From Thermococcus sp. MV5 (GTDB lineage: Archaea > Methanobacteriota_B > Thermococci > Thermococcales > Thermococcaceae): a stretch of DNA of 64,000 bases. Made by a program: the position numbers and the translations under genes. Numbering within the stretch: the stretch's first letter is position 1; each line of letters begins with the position of its first letter. This document shows, piece after piece, positions 31,647 to 43,225 of the stretch. The stretch spans positions 1 through 64,000 of the forward strand of contig NZ_SNUE01000006.1 of assembly GCF_012027425.1 (NCBI RefSeq), written 5' to 3'. The notes beneath the pieces were generated by a model, which was not told the DNA's origin, did not search any database, and saw only the letters and a list, made by a program, of their open reading frames with translations.

Positions 31647-32234
31647 ATGAAAATCGAGATACCATATCTAGTGGTTGATATTAATGGAAAGCTCTTTATG
31701 ATGGATGCTTATTTCTCAAAGAAAGTCGAAAAGATCGAACATGTCAGTGTCCTTATTAAGAAATTTGACAGAAGCCTACGTAAAGATCCACGTACTCCAC
31801 TTCCAAACTTAATTGATGAAGAAAACGTGGAGTATTTTATCAAGGATGTCTTTAAAAAGGTATACCATCGCTCAGGCAAGAAACTAGATGAAAGACTTCG
31901 CCATATTCGCAAGTGGAATCTTTTCCGACTATTTGGGATTCCAAGCGGGTTTAAGAGACATAAAGAGAAAGACGAAGAATTGGCAAGAGAAAATCGAGAA
32001 AGTCTTTTAGCACTAGCACTTCTCCAAAAAGTTCTTGGAATTAAAAACCCCCAAGAACTTGAGAATGTGGAAATAAAAGCTATAGAATGGAGATACTACA
32101 CAATTGAAATCAAAAAAGATGGTATATATAATGAAAAAGGAAAAAAAGACCCAATTTATACGGAACTTATGGAGAGAGACAATGGGTTTGCAGCATCCAT
32201 TCATGCTTTTGAATACAACCAACAGGCCACATAG
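31647..32234 (+). CDS. Hypothetical protein
   Basis: 195 residues, rich in Lys, Arg and Glu, with no motif that I can assign. A helical, strongly basic middle (about 60-130) is flanked by beta-like ends. It is divergent from hel308 and shares its promoter region, hinting at a nucleic-acid-related role, which is inference only. The start is the ATG at 31647, with no ribosome site and a TATA box 25 bases upstream, as for leaderless genes. The 3' end overlaps oppF by 34 bases on the opposite strand. Confidence 0.6.
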   Translation: MKIEIPYLVVDINGKLFMMDAYFSKKVEKIEHVSVLIKKFDRSLRKDPRTPLPNLIDEENVEYFIKDVFKKVYHRSGKKLDERLRHIRKWNLFRLFGIPSGFKRHKEKDEELARENRESLLALALLQKVLGIKNPQELENVEIKAIEWRYYTIEIKKDGIYNEKGKKDPIYTELMERDNGFAASIHAFEYNQQAT

Positions 32235-33175
32235 TGGTCTTTCTCTACTTCTACTAATGGAGGCTCGTCTGTTTTACATATACTTTTTGCGTAGGGACAT
32301 CTTGGATGAAATCTACATCCACTTGGCGGATTTATTGGACTTGGGGGTTCTCCACTAATCTTCTGTCTTTTGGCCTTTAACTCTTCAGCGAGCTCTGGAT
32401 CGGGAACTGGTATTGCTGAGAGCAGGAATTGGGTATATGGATGTAACGGATTCTCGAAGATTCTCTCTGCAGGGCCAACTTCTACAAGTTTTCCTAGATA
32501 CATCACGCCCATTCTGTGACTCATGTACTTAACAACTCCAAGGTCATGAGAAATAAAAAGATATGTAAATCCAAAGTCGTATTGAAGGTCCTTCAGCATG
32601 TTTAGGATGTTTGCTTGTACTGAAACATCAAGTGCTGAGGTGGGTTCGTCTAACACGATAAATTCTGGTTTTAATGCCAATAGTCGAGCTAGTGCTATTC
32701 TCTGTCTTTGACCACCACTAAATTCATGAGGATAACGATACAAGTGCGTTTCGTTCAATCCAACACTTTCTAAAAGCTTAACTACAAACTCCTCTGGATC
32801 ATCTACATGAATTCCATGAAATCTTACAGGTTCCATTATAATTTCAAAAACAGTTTGTCTTGGGTTAAGGGAGGAGTATGGGTCTTGGAACATTATCTGG
32901 GCGTCTTTACGGAACTGTTTGAGCTCTTCGCCTTTAAGTTCTGTAACGTTTTTTCCTTTGAATATTATTTCTCCACTAGTAGGCTCTATAAGCCTCAGTA
33001 TTGTCCTTCCGGTTGTTGTTTTTCCACACCCACTTTCTCCCACTAGTCCAAAGGTTTCACCCTTGTAAATTTCGAAACTTATATCATCTACTGCTTTTAC
33101 ATAGCCCTTTGTGAAGAATAATCCTTTAACTGGGAAGTATTTCTTCAAATGTTTAACTTCGAGTACTTTCTCCAT
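32201..33175 (-). CDS. oppF: Peptide ABC transporter ATPase OppF/DppF
   Basis: 324 residues. Walker A GESGCGKTT, signature SGGQRQRIALARLL, Walker B FIVLDEP and the switch His in LFISHDLG are all intact. The C-terminal oligopeptide-transporter extension carries cysteines in GCRFHPRCPYAKSIC, a conserved feature that often holds a [4Fe-4S] cluster. It is last in the operon oppA-B-C-D-F and pairs with OppD to power peptide import. Confidence 0.95.
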   Translation of the reverse strand: MEKVLEVKHLKKYFPVKGLFFTKGYVKAVDDISFEIYKGETFGLVGESGCGKTTTGRTILRLIEPTSGEIIFKGKNVTELKGEELKQFRKDAQIMFQDPYSSLNPRQTVFEIIMEPVRFHGIHVDDPEEFVVKLLESVGLNETHLYRYPHEFSGGQRQRIALARLLALKPEFIVLDEPTSALDVSVQANILNMLKDLQYDFGFTYLFISHDLGVVKYMSHRMGVMYLGKLVEVGPAERIFENPLHPYTQFLLSAIPVPDPELAEELKAKRQKISGEPPSPINPPSGCRFHPRCPYAKSICKTDEPPLVEVEKDHYVACWLYSKA

Positions 33176-33184
33176 GGTATCACC

Positions 33185-34162
33185 TCAGTAAAGATGACAT
33201 GCAACAAAGTGCCCATCTTCTATTTCCACTAATTCGGGTATTTTCTGCTTACAAATCTCCGTGGCAAACGGACATCTTGGATGGAATCTACATCCACCAG
33301 GAGGAGTTATTAAGTTTGGTACTGTTCCAGGAATTGCTTCTAAACGCTCAATTTTTGTCATTGGATTTGGAACAGCATTTAGAAGGCCTTTTGTATATGG
33401 ATGCAGCGGATTGTTAAATATCTGTTTCACATTTCCTATTTCCACAATTTTTCCTGCGTACATGACTGCTACTCTATCAGCAGTTTCTGCAACGACACCT
33501 AAATTATGGGTAATTAGGATAACAGTTGCATGGTATTTCGATTTAAGCTCATTTATCAAATCCAAAATTTGAGCCTGAACCGTTACATCGAGTGCAGTTG
33601 TAGGTTCGTCAGCTATGAGTACCTTTGGATTATTCGCAATTCCAGTTCCGATGACAACTCTCTGTTTCATACCACCACTGAGTTCATGTGGGTAGTTGTG
33701 AACTCTCTTCTCTGGATCGGGGATTAAAACAGATCTTAATATATCAACAGCCCTTCTAATACCCTCTTTTATATTTTTTATTCTTCCATGAACTTCCATA
33801 CCCTCTGCTATTTGATAGCCCACATTATATAATGGATCAAGAGAAGCGTGGGGATCCTGAAATATGTACGCTATCTCGTTTCCTCTGATCTCCCTAATTT
33901 CTTCTTCGTTTAATTGCAACAAATCAACAGGACCTTTCTCCGAATAATAGACTACCTTCCCACCTACTATTCTTCCGGGACTTTCTATAAGTTGAGTTAA
34001 AGCTCTTGAAGTTACGCTTTTTCCACATCCTGTTTCTCCTACTAAGGCAAAAGTTTCACCTTTGTAAACGTCAAAGGAGACTTTTTCAATGGCTTTTACT
34101 ATTCCTGCATATGTATAAAAGTGAACGGTTAGGTCTCTAACTTGGAGTATGGGCTCAGGCAT
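33185..34162 (-). CDS. oppD: Peptide ABC transporter ATPase OppD/DppD
   Basis: 325 residues with Walker A GETGCGKSV, signature SGGMKQRVVIG, Walker B VLIADEP, the H-loop in LITHNLG, and the C-terminal GCRFHPRCPFATEIC cysteine cluster. It is the partner of OppF, separated by 9 bases, and starts within the last codons of oppC. Confidence 0.95.
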   Translation of the reverse strand: MPEPILQVRDLTVHFYTYAGIVKAIEKVSFDVYKGETFALVGETGCGKSVTSRALTQLIESPGRIVGGKVVYYSEKGPVDLLQLNEEEIREIRGNEIAYIFQDPHASLDPLYNVGYQIAEGMEVHGRIKNIKEGIRRAVDILRSVLIPDPEKRVHNYPHELSGGMKQRVVIGTGIANNPKVLIADEPTTALDVTVQAQILDLINELKSKYHATVILITHNLGVVAETADRVAVMYAGKIVEIGNVKQIFNNPLHPYTKGLLNAVPNPMTKIERLEAIPGTVPNLITPPGGCRFHPRCPFATEICKQKIPELVEIEDGHFVACHLY

Positions 34163-35309
34163 TTTCCTCTCCCTCCTTTTTCCTCCTTTTAACCTTGAAC
34201 TCTATGCTCCTTCTTGTCTTTGGATCTAAAATGTCTCTAAGTCCATCTCCAAGCAAGTTCCATCCTAGTGCTACAAACATTACTATTAGACCGGGGTAGA
34301 AGACTAACCACCAGGCCTTTGGGAAGTACTGGGCACCATCATATACTATTCTTCCCCAATCTGCAATTGGGGGTGTTGCTCCCAGCCCTAAGAAGCTCAA
34401 TCCTGCTTCCATCAGAACCACGCTACCAAAATCCAAAGTTATGTACACTAATATTGGGCCCACTATGTTTGGTAAGATGTGCTTAAACATTATAGTCCAC
34501 GAACTGAGACCAATAGCTCTAGCAGCTTCTATGTACAGTTTTTCTTTTTCTGTTAGCGTTGATCCTCTTGTAATTCTAGCATAAACTGGCCACCAGACTA
34601 TTATCATTGCTAGAATTACTGAAAGTAATCTCCCCAAATTACCGGCTTCTCTTACATCCAATGCAAATAACCATAAGACAAACTTTTGAAGGAATGCATA
34701 ACTTTCGATAAAGCCTTGAATTCTATCAGGGAGTACTGCAGATAGTGCAATTGCTAGAATTAGAGCTGGAAATGCTAAAAACATATCAGTTATACGCATT
34801 AAGAGCTCGTCAACTTTGCCTCCTTTGTATCCTGCCAAGAGACCCAAGATTATACCGATAGGCACTCCAAGAGAGATGACTATTATTGAGACAACGAAAG
34901 ATGTTCTTGCCCCACTTAAAATTAAGCTCAGTAAGTCTCTTCCAAAGTGATCAGCCCCTAGTGGATAAGTTATTGTTGTATCTGCAAATTCTAAATGGGC
35001 TTCACTTCCTGGTGGAGCAAGGATCACTTGAGTAAAATTCATGGTATATAATGAGGGGAAGTAATTATACCTCCATGTTGCAAGTCTTGGTCCAAAAATG
35101 CCTAAAAGAATGAACATTACAACCAAGAAAACTCCTATTAAAGCGGGTGGTGATCTGTTAAGAGCATAAAGCATTAACCTCCATTCTTCCATTTTTGATT
35201 TGTTTTTCTTTTTCCAGTCTTTTTTGAACATGTTTATGAACGAACCAAGGCCATAAACTAGTTTATCAGCAATTTTGTCAAATATGTTCTTTTTATATTC
35301 CTCCTGCAT
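34155..35309 (-). CDS. oppC: Peptide ABC transporter permease OppC/DppC
   Basis: About 384 residues with six membrane segments and the EAA loop (YIEAARAIGLSSWTIMFKHILPN) contacting the ATPases. An N-terminal hydrophilic stretch of about 45 residues precedes the first membrane segment, and a long periplasmic loop (about 85-130) follows it. GAGGTGAG precedes the ATG at 35309, so that start is preferred over 35318. It overlaps oppD by 8 bases. Confidence 0.93.
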   Translation of the reverse strand: MQEEYKKNIFDKIADKLVYGLGSFINMFKKDWKKKNKSKMEEWRLMLYALNRSPPALIGVFLVVMFILLGIFGPRLATWRYNYFPSLYTMNFTQVILAPPGSEAHLEFADTTITYPLGADHFGRDLLSLILSGARTSFVVSIIVISLGVPIGIILGLLAGYKGGKVDELLMRITDMFLAFPALILAIALSAVLPDRIQGFIESYAFLQKFVLWLFALDVREAGNLGRLLSVILAMIIVWWPVYARITRGSTLTEKEKLYIEAARAIGLSSWTIMFKHILPNIVGPILVYITLDFGSVVLMEAGLSFLGLGATPPIADWGRIVYDGAQYFPKAWWLVFYPGLIVMFVALGWNLLGDGLRDILDPKTRRSIEFKVKRRKKEGEENA

Positions 35310-35321
35310 TTTTCTCACCTC

Positions 35322-36323
35322 TTAATACCTAACTCTTGGGTCTATTACTGCATAGAGGATGTCTACAACTAAATTAGCGGTGACGTATATCAACGCATAA
35401 ATGAAAGTTATTGCAACAATGACAGGGAAATCTAAGTTCTGGATCGATTGTATTGCATAGCTTCCCATACCAGGAAGAGCGAAAACAGTTTCTGTTATTG
35501 GTGTTCCCCCAAGTAGGCCTCCAAACTGCAGACCTAGAACTGTGACTATAGGAACTAAAGCGTTTTTCAGGGCATGTCTATAGATTCTAAGTTTTGGAAC
35601 ACCCTTTGCCTTTAGGAACCCAATGTAATCCCCACTTATCGCCTCTAGGAAGGAGTTTCTCACAAATCTTGCTAATACTCCAGTTCCCATAAATCCAAGG
35701 ACAAACCCCGGGAGCCAGAATCTAGCCAAGTGTTGTTTAAACAACATAAAATCTCCCGTTAAGAGGGCATCTATTATAGGAATATGTGTTATTTGGGTGG
35801 CCGGGGTTGGAGGAACTCCAGCCAAGTTTGTTATTCTAAATTTCACAAAGAACACAAAAATCAGAAGATATCCCAGCCAAAAAACAGGAGTTGAAACACC
35901 AATTAGGGCAAAGATTCTAACTATCGTATCTATAATACTATTTCTCTTAAGAGCAGAGATTAATCCCAACGGAATTCCAATAATGAGCGTAAATATAAAG
36001 GCTATTATAGCCAATTGAAAAGTTACCGGAAATCTATCCCTTATATCATCAAGCACGGGATTCGAAGTTCTTGGGTCGATTAAGGTATTTGTAGCTATAC
36101 CCTTTACTAGAAATATATACTGTTCGTACCAAGGATCGTTTAGGTGGTATCGTTCTTTAATTCTTTCAACAGCTTCTGGAGATGCCTTTTCTCCACCAGC
36201 CCATGCCTTAGCAGGGTCGGCAGGAATTACATAAGCTATTAAAAAGACTATTAAAGTGACACCAATTATTGTGGGAATAAATGTGAGAATTCTTCTTATC
36301 AAGAATTTCTTGAGTTCAGCCAT
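35322..36323 (-). CDS. oppB: Peptide ABC transporter permease OppB/DppB
   Basis: 333 residues with six membrane segments, the N-terminal signature FIPTIIGVTLIVFLI, and the EAA loop GFLKAKGVPKLRIYRHALKNA. It forms the channel with OppC. GGAGG precedes the ATG. It is separated from oppA by about 50 bases. Confidence 0.94.
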   Translation of the reverse strand: MAELKKFLIRRILTFIPTIIGVTLIVFLIAYVIPADPAKAWAGGEKASPEAVERIKERYHLNDPWYEQYIFLVKGIATNTLIDPRTSNPVLDDIRDRFPVTFQLAIIAFIFTLIIGIPLGLISALKRNSIIDTIVRIFALIGVSTPVFWLGYLLIFVFFVKFRITNLAGVPPTPATQITHIPIIDALLTGDFMLFKQHLARFWLPGFVLGFMGTGVLARFVRNSFLEAISGDYIGFLKAKGVPKLRIYRHALKNALVPIVTVLGLQFGGLLGGTPITETVFALPGMGSYAIQSIQNLDFPVIVAITFIYALIYVTANLVVDILYAVIDPRVRY

Positions 36324-36376: not shown

Positions 36377-38464
36377 TCACGATTCAACTGAAATTTCAAT
36401 CTTACTGAACTCGGTTGCACCATATAGGAATGGCCCGACCCAGTTGTCTGAGTCAAGATAATCTGGTACCCATCCGACAACATAGACATCGTAATCTCCT
36501 TTGGATGTCTTGCTTAGGTATACTGGCCATTCATAGCTTCCCACTGTGACTTGGAAGCCAAGTTGGCTCCAAATGTTTTGTAGTAATGTCATGATCTTCT
36601 CACGAGCACTGTTTCCAGCGTTGTAAATGAGTTCGATCTTGTAGTCGCTTGGGTTAATTCCGGCTTCTTGGAGAAGTTGTTGGGCTTTGTTTATGTCATA
36701 AGTGTATTTGGTGATTCCATACTCAGTGAATCCGGGCCATGGTTTTGGAATTGGTCCCCAGTTTCTCTCAAGCAATCCGGAGTAAACTACTTCAGAGATC
36801 TGATCATATGGTATTGCATAGGCTAGAGCTTCTCTAACTTTTGGATTGTTGAATGGTTCTTTCTGGGTGTTGAAGACTATGAATGTTAATATTGGCTGTA
36901 GAATATCTGTTTGGACTACTGACTTGAATCCTTGGAATTCAAGACCTTTAACGTCATTAACTCTCTCTGGTGGTGTTGCGACAGCATCAACTGTTCCAGT
37001 TTGGAAGAGTTGGATTCTTGAAACAGCATCATTGTTTATAACATAAATTACTCTCTCATGTCCTGGTTTTATGCTCTTGTCCCAGTAATATGGATTGCGC
37101 TCGAGAACTATGTAAGCATTTTCTTTGTATTCTTTTACATAGAATGGTCCAGTTCCAACAGGTTGCTTGTGCATAAGTTGGTGAGTTGGGTCTTGTTCAC
37201 CTTCTTCTATGTAAGCCTCCCAAGCATCTGGAGTCTTTCCATTGTTTGAAGCGCTCAGTGCCTCTTCGTATTTGTCACCAAGAAGATACTCCATTGGGAC
37301 TACTGAAAGGAATGAATCTGCTAGTATACCAAGAACTGCAGCGTATGGAGCTGGTAAGACAAGCTTAAAGACACCAGCAGTCTCTCCACTATATCCAAAG
37401 ACATTCAACAAGTCTTGGAGAGACTTAACTTCTACAGTCTTTCCATTGTACTCAGCAATAAGTTTCTTGTCCTTAAGAACCTCCTCAAACTCTTTTTCAG
37501 TTAGAGCTTGGGATTTGCTAACGTCCATAAAGCTGGAGACCATCCATGAAACACTGTGCCCTAACCTCTGGACACGCCAGAATGTGAAGGCAACATCAAC
37601 AGCATCAATGGGATATGTCTTATCATTCCATGGATCGTAGGCAACAACTCCTCCTCTAATAACAAAGTACCATTCAGTGCCATCTTCATTGTGTGCCCAT
37701 GCAACAGCTAAATCTGGAGTTACTTTTTCAGTTTCTTCTTTCCAGTAGGTAACCAAAGTATCACCGACTTCATGCCAAATTTCCCATCCAAAAGTCTCAT
37801 ATGTCCAAGCTGGATCAAAGCTCTCTGGCCATCCGATTGTACCTATAACGTAAGTTTGAGCGTCGTTCTTGTAGTCTCCAATTCCAATGGTGACACTTGG
37901 TGCATTTGGGTCTTCCCATATTAGATCATACCTCTCTGGAAATGTTGGGTGATAGTATCTTCCTTTGACCCATTCCCAATAAACACGAAGTTGTCTGTTT
38001 TGGCCAAGAATGATTTCAGGTACATACTTGTTTCCAAGGATGTAAAGGGCTTTAAAGAGCTCAGTTCTTATCTCCGGGTTGGTTTCTCTTCTTGCAGCGA
38101 TTACAAGTGCATCTACTGTAGTGTCTCTAAAGAATGCTGGGTTAATAGCACCAAATCCCTGGCCTTCTTCCATTAATTGTTGCACTCCTGGAGTGTTGGC
38201 TTCATCAACCACATATGTGACTTTTATAATTTTCTTTCCACTGGGAAGAGAAGCAGGCACCTGAGCTCCCTCAGGGCCAACTAATATAACGCTCTTATCA
38301 GTTTCAATTACTTCGTAAGTGGGACCAGTTGGTTGGGTCTCAGTAGAAGTCTCAGTGGGGGTTGAAGTTGTTTGTGTGGTGGTTTCACCACCAATACAGC
38401 CGCTTGCAACTACTGCGAAAACTAAAACGCTTACCACTAACAGTGTCGCCAATTGTTTCTTCAT
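36377..38464 (-). CDS. oppA: Peptide-binding lipoprotein of the Opp transporter, apparently circularly permuted
   Basis: A substrate-binding lipoprotein (SBP_bac_5 family) of about 695 residues with lipobox VVASGC and a Thr/Pro linker. The order of parts is unusual. Residues about 85-187 (DTTVDALVIAARRETNP, then YVPEIILGQN and YWEWVKGRYYHP) correspond to what is normally the C-terminal end of this family. The normal N-terminal beginning (GTIGWPESFDPAW and TPDLAVAW) follows from about 205. The protein then stops after VPDYLDSDNWVGPFLYG, where other members continue with the helix found here at the front. GGAGGT precedes the ATG at 38464. Confidence 0.88.
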   Translation of the reverse strand: MKKQLATLLVVSVLVFAVVASGCIGGETTTQTTSTPTETSTETQPTGPTYEVIETDKSVILVGPEGAQVPASLPSGKKIIKVTYVVDEANTPGVQQLMEEGQGFGAINPAFFRDTTVDALVIAARRETNPEIRTELFKALYILGNKYVPEIILGQNRQLRVYWEWVKGRYYHPTFPERYDLIWEDPNAPSVTIGIGDYKNDAQTYVIGTIGWPESFDPAWTYETFGWEIWHEVGDTLVTYWKEETEKVTPDLAVAWAHNEDGTEWYFVIRGGVVAYDPWNDKTYPIDAVDVAFTFWRVQRLGHSVSWMVSSFMDVSKSQALTEKEFEEVLKDKKLIAEYNGKTVEVKSLQDLLNVFGYSGETAGVFKLVLPAPYAAVLGILADSFLSVVPMEYLLGDKYEEALSASNNGKTPDAWEAYIEEGEQDPTHQLMHKQPVGTGPFYVKEYKENAYIVLERNPYYWDKSIKPGHERVIYVINNDAVSRIQLFQTGTVDAVATPPERVNDVKGLEFQGFKSVVQTDILQPILTFIVFNTQKEPFNNPKVREALAYAIPYDQISEVVYSGLLERNWGPIPKPWPGFTEYGITKYTYDINKAQQLLQEAGINPSDYKIELIYNAGNSAREKIMTLLQNIWSQLGFQVTVGSYEWPVYLSKTSKGDYDVYVVGWVPDYLDSDNWVGPFLYGATEFSKIEISVES

Positions 38465-38510
38465 TGGCACACCTCCACAAAGTAGAGCATTAATGTCTTA
38501 ATCAAAGGAG

Positions 38511-38952: not shown

Positions 38953-39261
38953 TTATTTTTTTCTGTCCTGTTTTCTAAATTCTCTAACCTTTTGAGTTAT
39001 TAGTTTTAATGTCTTCGACTTGCCATGCTTACTTTCTACTATAATCCTTCCCTTGACTTTGAGAGTGTCGTCTAGCGCTGAAAGTCGTGGGTTTAAAGCT
39101 TTATCATTGATTTCGATCACATTGAGTCCAATGGTTTTAGCTGCATCTACAATCTCGAGTAGAGTCGGTTTATCTACTGCAAGGTTCTTTGGGACCTCTC
39201 TTCCATATTTCCGGGGTATCCTTGCATCTATCTCATTTGTCCATATTACAAACCTCTTCAT
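38953..39261 (-). CDS. srp19: Signal recognition particle protein SRP19
   Basis: 102 residues matching archaeal SRP19, which binds SRP RNA and prepares it for SRP54. The N-terminal RFVIWTNEIDARIPRKYGR and the central NPRLSALDD are diagnostic. The C-terminus is strongly basic. AGGTG precedes the ATG at 39261, favouring it over GTG 39270. It ends 5 bases from the stop of the RAM-domain gene on the other strand. Confidence 0.93.
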   Translation of the reverse strand: MKRFVIWTNEIDARIPRKYGREVPKNLAVDKPTLLEIVDAAKTIGLNVIEINDKALNPRLSALDDTLKVKGRIIVESKHGKSKTLKLITQKVREFRKQDRKK

Positions 39262-39316
39262 CTTGAACACCTAAAAAGTTTAAAAGCCATTAGATTAAAA
39301 ATTCTTTGGTGAGAAC

Positions 39317-39934
39317 ATGGAGGTAGGCCCAATCCTTGAGTTCTTGAAAAAAAATGTGAGTTTAGGAGACTTTGTTATTGTGGAGTATCCATCTTCATAT
39401 TCACTTGCAAAATTGCTCTGGGGGGGACTTATACCCGAGATCCCACAGGAAGAAGTATTAATAGATGACTTTTTTGGAATTGGGGATCTCCTCTTTAGAG
39501 ATTACTTGCGAAAGGCTTCCCCGGGAGAGTATAAAAAAGCGATAGAGGCCACAAAAAAAATCCGAGCAATACGAATAGGGCCTGGAAGAACTAGTTATGC
39601 CTCCATAGTAGAAGAAATCCCCATCACCTATGATGTCTCGGAATTTATGAGGAGCTATTACAATGCATTAATGAATCTCTTTTCAGGTTCTGCTAAAGTG
39701 GAATACTCCATAACAGTGGGTATCTCTCAATATCTTTACTTTGGAGGCGAAAAGGCATTAAGAGCAATTTTGTTTACGAGAAGCACTCTACCATTTGAAG
39801 ACTGGAGTTCGATTTATTTTGTAAATAGTGACATTTTAGATGAAAAACAACTAGCAGTTTTGAAAGAACTTGCCAGCTGGCAGTTAAAAATTGAAAAGGA
39901 GAAAGGAACATACAGAATAAAAGTCGAAGACTAA
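39317..39934 (+). CDS. DUF257 family protein
   Basis: 205 residues resembling the Thermococcales DUF257 family, which has a degenerate RecA/KaiC-like fold without a P-loop. Characteristic are VIVEYPSSYSLAKLLWGGL near the start and the IDDFFGIGDLL stretch. Its function is unknown. A GGTGAG ribosome site precedes the ATG. trmI follows after 13 bases. Confidence 0.75.
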   Translation: MEVGPILEFLKKNVSLGDFVIVEYPSSYSLAKLLWGGLIPEIPQEEVLIDDFFGIGDLLFRDYLRKASPGEYKKAIEATKKIRAIRIGPGRTSYASIVEEIPITYDVSEFMRSYYNALMNLFSGSAKVEYSITVGISQYLYFGGEKALRAILFTRSTLPFEDWSSIYFVNSDILDEKQLAVLKELASWQLKIEKEKGTYRIKVED

Positions 39935-39947
39935 CTTGGTGGTATAA

Positions 39948-40709
39948 ATGATCAAACTCGGTGATAAGGTTGTATTACTTGATCCTAGGGGAAAACGATA
40001 TCTAATAACCGTGAAAGAAGAGGAGTTTCATACGGATCTTGGTATAATAAACTTGGAGAAAATTGTAGATAAAGAGTTCGGGATATTTGTAAAGTCTCAC
40101 AAGGGGTATCAATTTAGAGTACTAAAACCACGGATAATAGATTACATTGATAAGATGAAAAGGGGCCCACAGATAATTCATCCAAAAGATGCTGCTCAAA
40201 TTGTGGCATTTGCTGGGATATCTCCTGGGGATATAATAATTGAAGCAGGAGTTGGGAGTGGAGCATTAACCCTTTTCTTGGCCAACATTATTGGGCCTCA
40301 GGGAAGAATAATAGGCTATGAGATACGAGAAGACTTTGCAAACCTTGCGTGGAGAAACGTAGAATGGGTAGGCTTTTCTGACAGAGTAGAAATAAAGCTA
40401 AAAAACATATATGAGGGAATAGATGAAGAAGAAGTCGACCATATAATCTTGGATCTTCCTCAGCCCGAAAATGTTGTTGAACATGCTGTAAAAGCTCTGA
40501 AACCAGGGGGATTTCTCATTGCATATACCCCATGTATAAATCAAGTAGATAGATTTTACAAGAAACTGAGAGAATATAAAAAGCATTTTACAAAACCCCG
40601 TACTATTGAATGCTTGGTAAGAGAGCAAGAAGTTAAACTAGACTGTATAAGACCACGAACCACTATGCTAGCTCACACTGGCTATATAACATTTGTTAGG
40701 AAAGCTTAG
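39948..40709 (+). CDS. trmI: tRNA (adenine 57/58-N1)-methyltransferase TrmI
   Basis: A 253-residue SAM-dependent enzyme that makes m1A at tRNA positions 57 and 58, helping thermostability. An N-terminal beta-rich domain (about 1-75) precedes the Rossmann methyltransferase with EAGVGSGALTL, the acidic GYEIREDFA, and LDLPQPENVV as the catalytic motif. Length and motif order match Pyrococcus TrmI. It is the second gene of a pair with the DUF257 gene. Confidence 0.92.
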   Translation: MIKLGDKVVLLDPRGKRYLITVKEEEFHTDLGIINLEKIVDKEFGIFVKSHKGYQFRVLKPRIIDYIDKMKRGPQIIHPKDAAQIVAFAGISPGDIIIEAGVGSGALTLFLANIIGPQGRIIGYEIREDFANLAWRNVEWVGFSDRVEIKLKNIYEGIDEEEVDHIILDLPQPENVVEHAVKALKPGGFLIAYTPCINQVDRFYKKLREYKKHFTKPRTIECLVREQEVKLDCIRPRTTMLAHTGYITFVRKA

Positions 40710-40858
40710 CTTTTTTAGACATTTTATTACTTGTTTTCAGACTTTCATATAGTTTTAATTTCTCATTTCACAGTTTTTCTTGTTCAATTGGCCTTTTTCT
40801 TGCAAGATGGATCTTATAAACACCTCATATATATCTATAACCATTGGTTTACAATAAT

Positions 40859-40883
40859 TTTATAAACACCATTTGTTTTCAAC
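40859..40883 (+). promoter_or_regulatory. Promoter of sudBA with a possible SurR site
   Basis: TTTATAAA (40859-40866) is a TATA box about 28 bases before an expected start near 40887. GTTTTCAAC at 40875-40883 fits the core GTTn3AAC recognised by the Thermococcales redox regulator SurR, which controls sulfur-linked oxidoreductases. The TATA region TTATAAACACC (40860-40870) is repeated exactly at 40814-40824. The SurR assignment is inference, since a 9-mer of this kind occurs by chance several times in such a window. Confidence 0.4.
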
Positions 40884-40928
40884 AAGGATAGATGCCCAAA
40901 TTTGGACCTACGTACGGAGGTGTACATT

Positions 40929-43225
<2,297 letters not shown>

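Follow-up and report, generated by a model that had tools for sequence, protein, structure and literature searches.

The window (the whole 64,000-nucleotide stretch of Thermococcus sp. MV5 DNA analysed here) carries on its minus strand a gene for a 697-residue family-5 solute-binding lipoprotein (36377..38470; open reading frame, PF00496 match with an E value of 1.8e-70). The gene starts with GTG or, alternatively, with the ATG at 38464 chosen in the initial annotation; residue numbers below follow the GTG start. It forms the head of an oppBCDF operon on the same strand, with genes for an OppB-like permease (35322..36323) and an OppC-like permease (34155..35318), both recognized from open reading frame and synteny, and open reading frames for an OppD-like ATPase (33185..34162) and an OppF-like ATPase (32201..33175), that is, the two permeases and two ATPases expected of an SBP_bac_5 operon. 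Upstream, positions 38953-43225 hold a small open reading frame, a 205-codon open reading frame, a gene for a TrmI-like methyltransferase and genes for two sulfide-dehydrogenase-like subunits, in an order that is kept in the genus g5 and in other Thermococcaceae.

The N-terminal residues 1-25 comprise a signal peptide and lipobox, read from the sequence as residues 3-25 (38396..38464, minus strand) with SGC at 23-25; for Pyrococcus lipoproteins, PMC3824201 describes SG/CIGG as the lipobox. A Thr/Ser/Pro-rich tether follows at residues 26-50 (38321..38395, minus strand), and pLDDT stays below 50 over residues 1-47 of the predicted structure. The remainder was divided into three segments named after the canonical order A-B-C. 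Segment C, residues 51-199 (37874..38320, minus strand), was defined by segment profiles, a PDB profile search and the junction table. It consists of a strand hairpin, 51-112, for which the segment profiles give no counterpart among canonical family-5 proteins, and of residues 113-199, which correspond to the canonical C-terminal segment. Segment A, residues 200-467 (37070..37873, minus strand), is the canonical N-terminal half, and segment B, residues 468-697 (36380..37069, minus strand), is the canonical third quarter; both were assigned by alignment, BLAST and segment profiles, and B also from the AlphaFold2 model. The segments of the window protein therefore stand in the order C-A-B, not in the canonical order A-B-C of SBP_bac_5 proteins.

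Segment order and predicted fold

The initial annotation had proposed a circular permutation on the ground that the family's C-terminal pieces lie near the N-terminus. They do: VDALVIAARRETNPEIR begins at residue 119 and is followed by YVPEIILGQN and YWEWVKGRYYHP, and all three precede the family's N-terminal strand at about residue 206. The accompanying statement that the chain stops right after its last family motif needs amendment, since DNWVGPFLYG is indeed found near the end of segment B but is followed by a strand of 13 further residues, ATEFSKIEISVES. PF00496 recognizes the window protein with 238 bits (gathering score 32.4). Seeking its C-terminal states at the N-terminus, as had been suggested, was tried and says little, because the model is confined to the family's central part (positions 1-364 of its 368 align with residues 249-685 of the window protein).

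A profile of the 113-203 region was more informative. Built from 14 diverse relatives and run against 177,635 PDB sequences, it matched 22 chains at E<1 (best 0.0011), and all 22 are family-5 binding proteins matched at their C-terminal end, as at 466-533 of 543 in 5f1q. Residues 78-200 as a single-sequence query against the PDB gave nothing significant. Among the family-5 proteins fetched, all 34 canonical proteins that possess the 113-203 segment have it 10-21 residues after segment B. Pairwise BLAST with L087, L083 and L100 agrees with the permutation seen by the profiles; in the Tissierellia protein L087, query residues 186-675 are matched first, then 95-180. Every rotation of the window protein was also scored against a set of 17 canonical proteins. 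The best mean score was reached when the chain was re-cut 136-160 residues past residue 51 (about 187-211), near the start of A, and the g5 and L059 proteins described below likewise peaked there. As controls, three canonical proteins gave their best scores without rotation or with a shift of at most 8 residues.

AlphaFold2, given an alignment with 26 relatives, predicted for the window protein a two-lobed family-5 fold (pLDDT 88.6, pTM 0.86). In this model helices span residues 117-128 and 132-149, and strands 152-159 and 162-165, the pattern expected of a canonical family-5 C-terminus. Foldseek returned DppA, OppA, NikA and other family-5 structures as the top matches (best E 6e-26), a result that shows the fold and not the permutation itself, as the program aligns in sequence order and reports no residue ranges here. 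The DppA/OppA fold also rules out a Type Ic permuted binding protein (TpMglB-2 class). The corresponding model of the g5 protein is weak (pLDDT 70.7, pTM 0.62; alignment of 12 rows). Asp670 (36461..36463, minus strand), an invariant column in 26 C-A-B proteins, aligns with DppA Asp408, the contact of the ligand amino group. Together with the operon, this residue points to peptide uptake. From family, operon and conserved Asp, we infer that the window gene encodes a lipoprotein that would bind dipeptides or oligopeptides for an Opp-type ABC importer.

Taken together, the statistically supported presence of the C-terminal segment at the N-terminus, the conservation of this order in orthologues and the confident model support the reading of the window protein as a circular permutant rather than as a truncated protein with an added domain. 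Decisive extra support comes from close orthologues in two other rotations, since these join the C- and N-terminal ends of the window protein in one chain.

Orthologues in other rotations

Matches were found in 64 of 94 Thermococcaceae genomes and nearly all are C-A-B, which speaks against an assembly artefact; the exceptions are the genus g5 and some fragmentary or split copies. In all three g5 genomes (G016, G020 and G024), the order is B-C-A: the equivalents of residues 468-695 come first and those of 52-467 after, placing the cut at 467/468 of the window protein (37069..37070, minus strand), as located by BLAST, segment profiles and the junction table. The g5 genes each carry a separate lipobox and linker, join B to C through a linker such as DATADDISSMMSEAEVIETD, and end in NPYYWNK(D/E)LWEKEYGYKP. 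By synteny, their locus is that of the window gene: oppBCDF flanks them on one side, and the neighbours on the other side are likewise shared. Per-segment identities of the three g5 proteins are 66-92% to the Thermococcus C-A-B proteins L001 and L010, and 30-71% to the B-C-A proteins of Thermoproteota. Because they are nearer to the former in every segment, simple import of the g5 gene is not supported.

Many Thermoproteota orthologues share the B-C-A order and the 467/468 cut, and some are C-A-B (search of 398 genomes from the phylum to which G139 belongs and which, judged by relatives such as Staphylothermus L057, should be Thermoproteota). In Archaeoglobi, C-A-B occurs in 7 of 59 genomes. 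A third order, B2-C-A-B1, with signal peptide and lipobox and with a cut at 514/515 (36928..36929, minus strand; BLAST and segment profiles), is known from one 4.9-kb contig of a Thermoplasmata-labelled MAG (L059). As the gene occurs only there among 293 Thermoplasmatota genomes examined, this copy was transferred or misbinned, and its order, taken on its own, could be an artefact.

Individual loci showed further peculiarities. G026:C1 has an apparent second permuted copy across the contig ends (about 1860542 to 1357), besides the copy at 1818140-1820275. At G064:C1:884857-886859, the gene lies in two open frames, probably through a frameshift. In a genome of the same genus (L028; G012:C1, about 841293-841991), the gene for the binding protein is disrupted: the sequence coding for its first 236 residues continues directly into that of oppD (TYETFGWEIWHEIAYIFQDPHASL), and the remainder of the gene, together with oppB and oppC, has apparently been deleted. 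The deepest C-A-B relative, a 795-residue open reading frame (L132; G383:C28), carries about 130 extra C-terminal residues (YGVVMLKNGNLYVAGTNRFGTEAALLYATQ) that, from reading only, resemble an archaeal S-layer-type domain.

For a tree, all sequences were re-cut to A-B-C (66 rows). The permuted proteins formed one clade against the canonical ones (100/100), and the g5 B-C-A proteins were nested within the C-A-B group, adjoining Archaeoglobi, with starred support. Constraining all B-C-A proteins to one clade was rejected (p = 1.7e-52), as was a single clade of euryarchaeal C-A-B proteins without g5 and L059 (p = 2.6e-6). The tree requires five order changes. Since a single clade of Thermoproteota B-C-A proteins was not rejected (p = 0.095), we claim four rather than five, and no extra event is counted for the Thermoproteota C-A-B proteins because their joint clade with the euryarchaeal group was not rejected either (p = 0.159). 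The order thus changed at least four times, including the first departure from A-B-C and one change contributed solely by L059.

The junction table locates the ends more finely. The B-C linker helix is intact in B-C-A proteins, N-terminal in Thermococcaceae C-A-B proteins and C-terminal in most Thermoproteota C-A-B proteins; in the deepest group, both the helix and the strand are C-terminal. This pattern is the one expected from several separate cuts, although a sliding of the ends may also account for it. Since the C-A-B cut lies ahead of the linker helix in Thermococcaceae, behind it in Thermoproteota and, in the deepest group, behind both helix and strand, we tentatively consider that C-A-B itself may have arisen several times, besides B-C-A and B2-C-A-B1, with termini that wandered repeatedly, although we lean slightly against it. 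If true, the proteins of this family would make up a natural series of permutations, in which selection may have acted on the attachment point of the tether.

Rival readings and the route of rotation

Loss of a canonical C-terminus combined with gain of an unrelated N-terminal domain would suit the hairpin at 51-112, which lacks a canonical counterpart, and the fruitless single-sequence search with 78-200, but we regard it as extremely improbable given that the 113-203 profile is specific for family-5 C-termini, that the canonical B-to-C gap is constant, and that the B-C-A relatives carry both edges covalently joined. Errors of assembly or gene calling deserve mention as several genomes are draft MAGs; their probability is negligible, for both C-A-B and B-C-A occur in single-contig genomes (e.g., G009, G016, G289 and G413), in intact reading frames with their own signal peptides or anchors. 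A single origin of B-C-A, the g5 gene having been acquired from, or recombined with, a Thermoproteota gene, draws on cut sites that are equal within a few residues and on shared ends, both groups finishing in YG(Y/F)KP and starting with (A)IHK/FHK. The per-segment identities to L001 and L010, the rejection of a single B-C-A clade and the unchanged locus all argue against it and make it quite improbable, although a recombinant patch confined to the gene ends may be present. We hold with high confidence that the window gene encodes an Opp-type peptide-binding lipoprotein whose mature chain is permuted C-A-B, in a clade re-permuted several times. In this reading, the protein retains the family-5 fold and ligand site, its N-terminal lipid anchor and flexible tether having moved to a new surface loop. 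One orthologous gene exists in C-A-B, B-C-A and B2-C-A-B1 forms, every form being equipped with a separate signal or membrane anchor and a tether. What the data show directly is the permutation, the three orders, the synteny of the g5 form at its locus and the non-monophyly of B-C-A.

As to how the gene was rotated, close orthologues show different orders in situ although the 5' signal-linker piece stays in place, and for this reason we favour, with some reserve, a route through duplication. The gene would have been duplicated in tandem, the copies fused in frame, and one end of each copy lost, at opposite ends, the 5' signal-linker piece being re-used in the rotated gene. Neither tandem-fused nor partly truncated intermediates were seen among the approximately 1,300 genomes searched, and the sequence downstream of the g5 gene contained no trace of the end that was lost. 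A 1297-residue open reading frame in G574, considered as a tandem-fusion intermediate, proved to be a scaffold gap artefact in which a run of N joins another gene. The main rival on this point, that half-proteins were once separate and were re-fused in other orders, can invoke fission and fusion as a recognized permutation route (PMC3320104) and the occurrence of split copies such as the two open frames in G064. It nevertheless appears unlikely: the split copies resemble frameshifts, in none of the genomes examined are the halves conserved as secreted proteins in their own right, and three cut sites would require three separate splits. Duplication, the route that we prefer, is also the one exemplified by swaposins and DNA methyltransferases (PMC3320104), with the difference that no double-copy intermediate was seen for the window gene family.

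Comparison with known binding proteins

Natural circular permutation is usually regarded as one ancient event per family. Here, one orthologous gene occurs in different rotations, in one genus at an unchanged locus, so that close relatives (sharing about 66-92% identity in each segment) lend themselves to the study of the route, of which cut sites are tolerated, and of what moving the membrane tether does. The same gene supplies natural thermostable permutants of the DppA/OppA fold. The change of order in C-A-B proteins is invisible to the standard Pfam model, PF00496, which covers the middle region. In the open-access literature, we found no report of permuted family-5 binding proteins or of several rotations within one orthologous binding-protein gene.

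A relative may already have been detected as a protein. Pyrococcus furiosus PF1408, a putative dipeptide-binding lipoprotein, was identified in culture supernatant by 30 unique peptides with 52% coverage; it has a mass of 79.4 kDa and a similar signal peptide, MKKGLLAILLVGVMVLGTFGSG/CIGGGTQTQT, and the accessible part of the source makes no mention of permutation (PMC3824201). Going by N-terminus, mass and name alone, as given there, PF1408 is a probable orthologue of the window protein.

Compared with DppA and OppA (PF00496), the window protein shares the fold, the segments A, B and C, the ligand-contact Asp, the lipoprotein nature and the oppBCDF operon. It differs from them in the order of segments, C-A-B instead of A-B-C, in the presence of an extra strand hairpin and a linker between segments B and C, and in an anchor that sits at another loop. 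Natural permutation of a lipid-anchored binding protein is itself already known, in another fold class, from Tp0684 (TpMglB-2; 'Type Ic / Cluster Bc' of Brautigam et al. 2016; PMC4990184); the family-5 case is unreported as far as we found. Like the window protein, Tp0684 is a natural circular permutant and a lipid-anchored solute-binding protein of an ABC importer (PMC4990184). By contrast, it has a cluster B sugar-binding fold and a single reported permutation, against several in one orthologous gene here.
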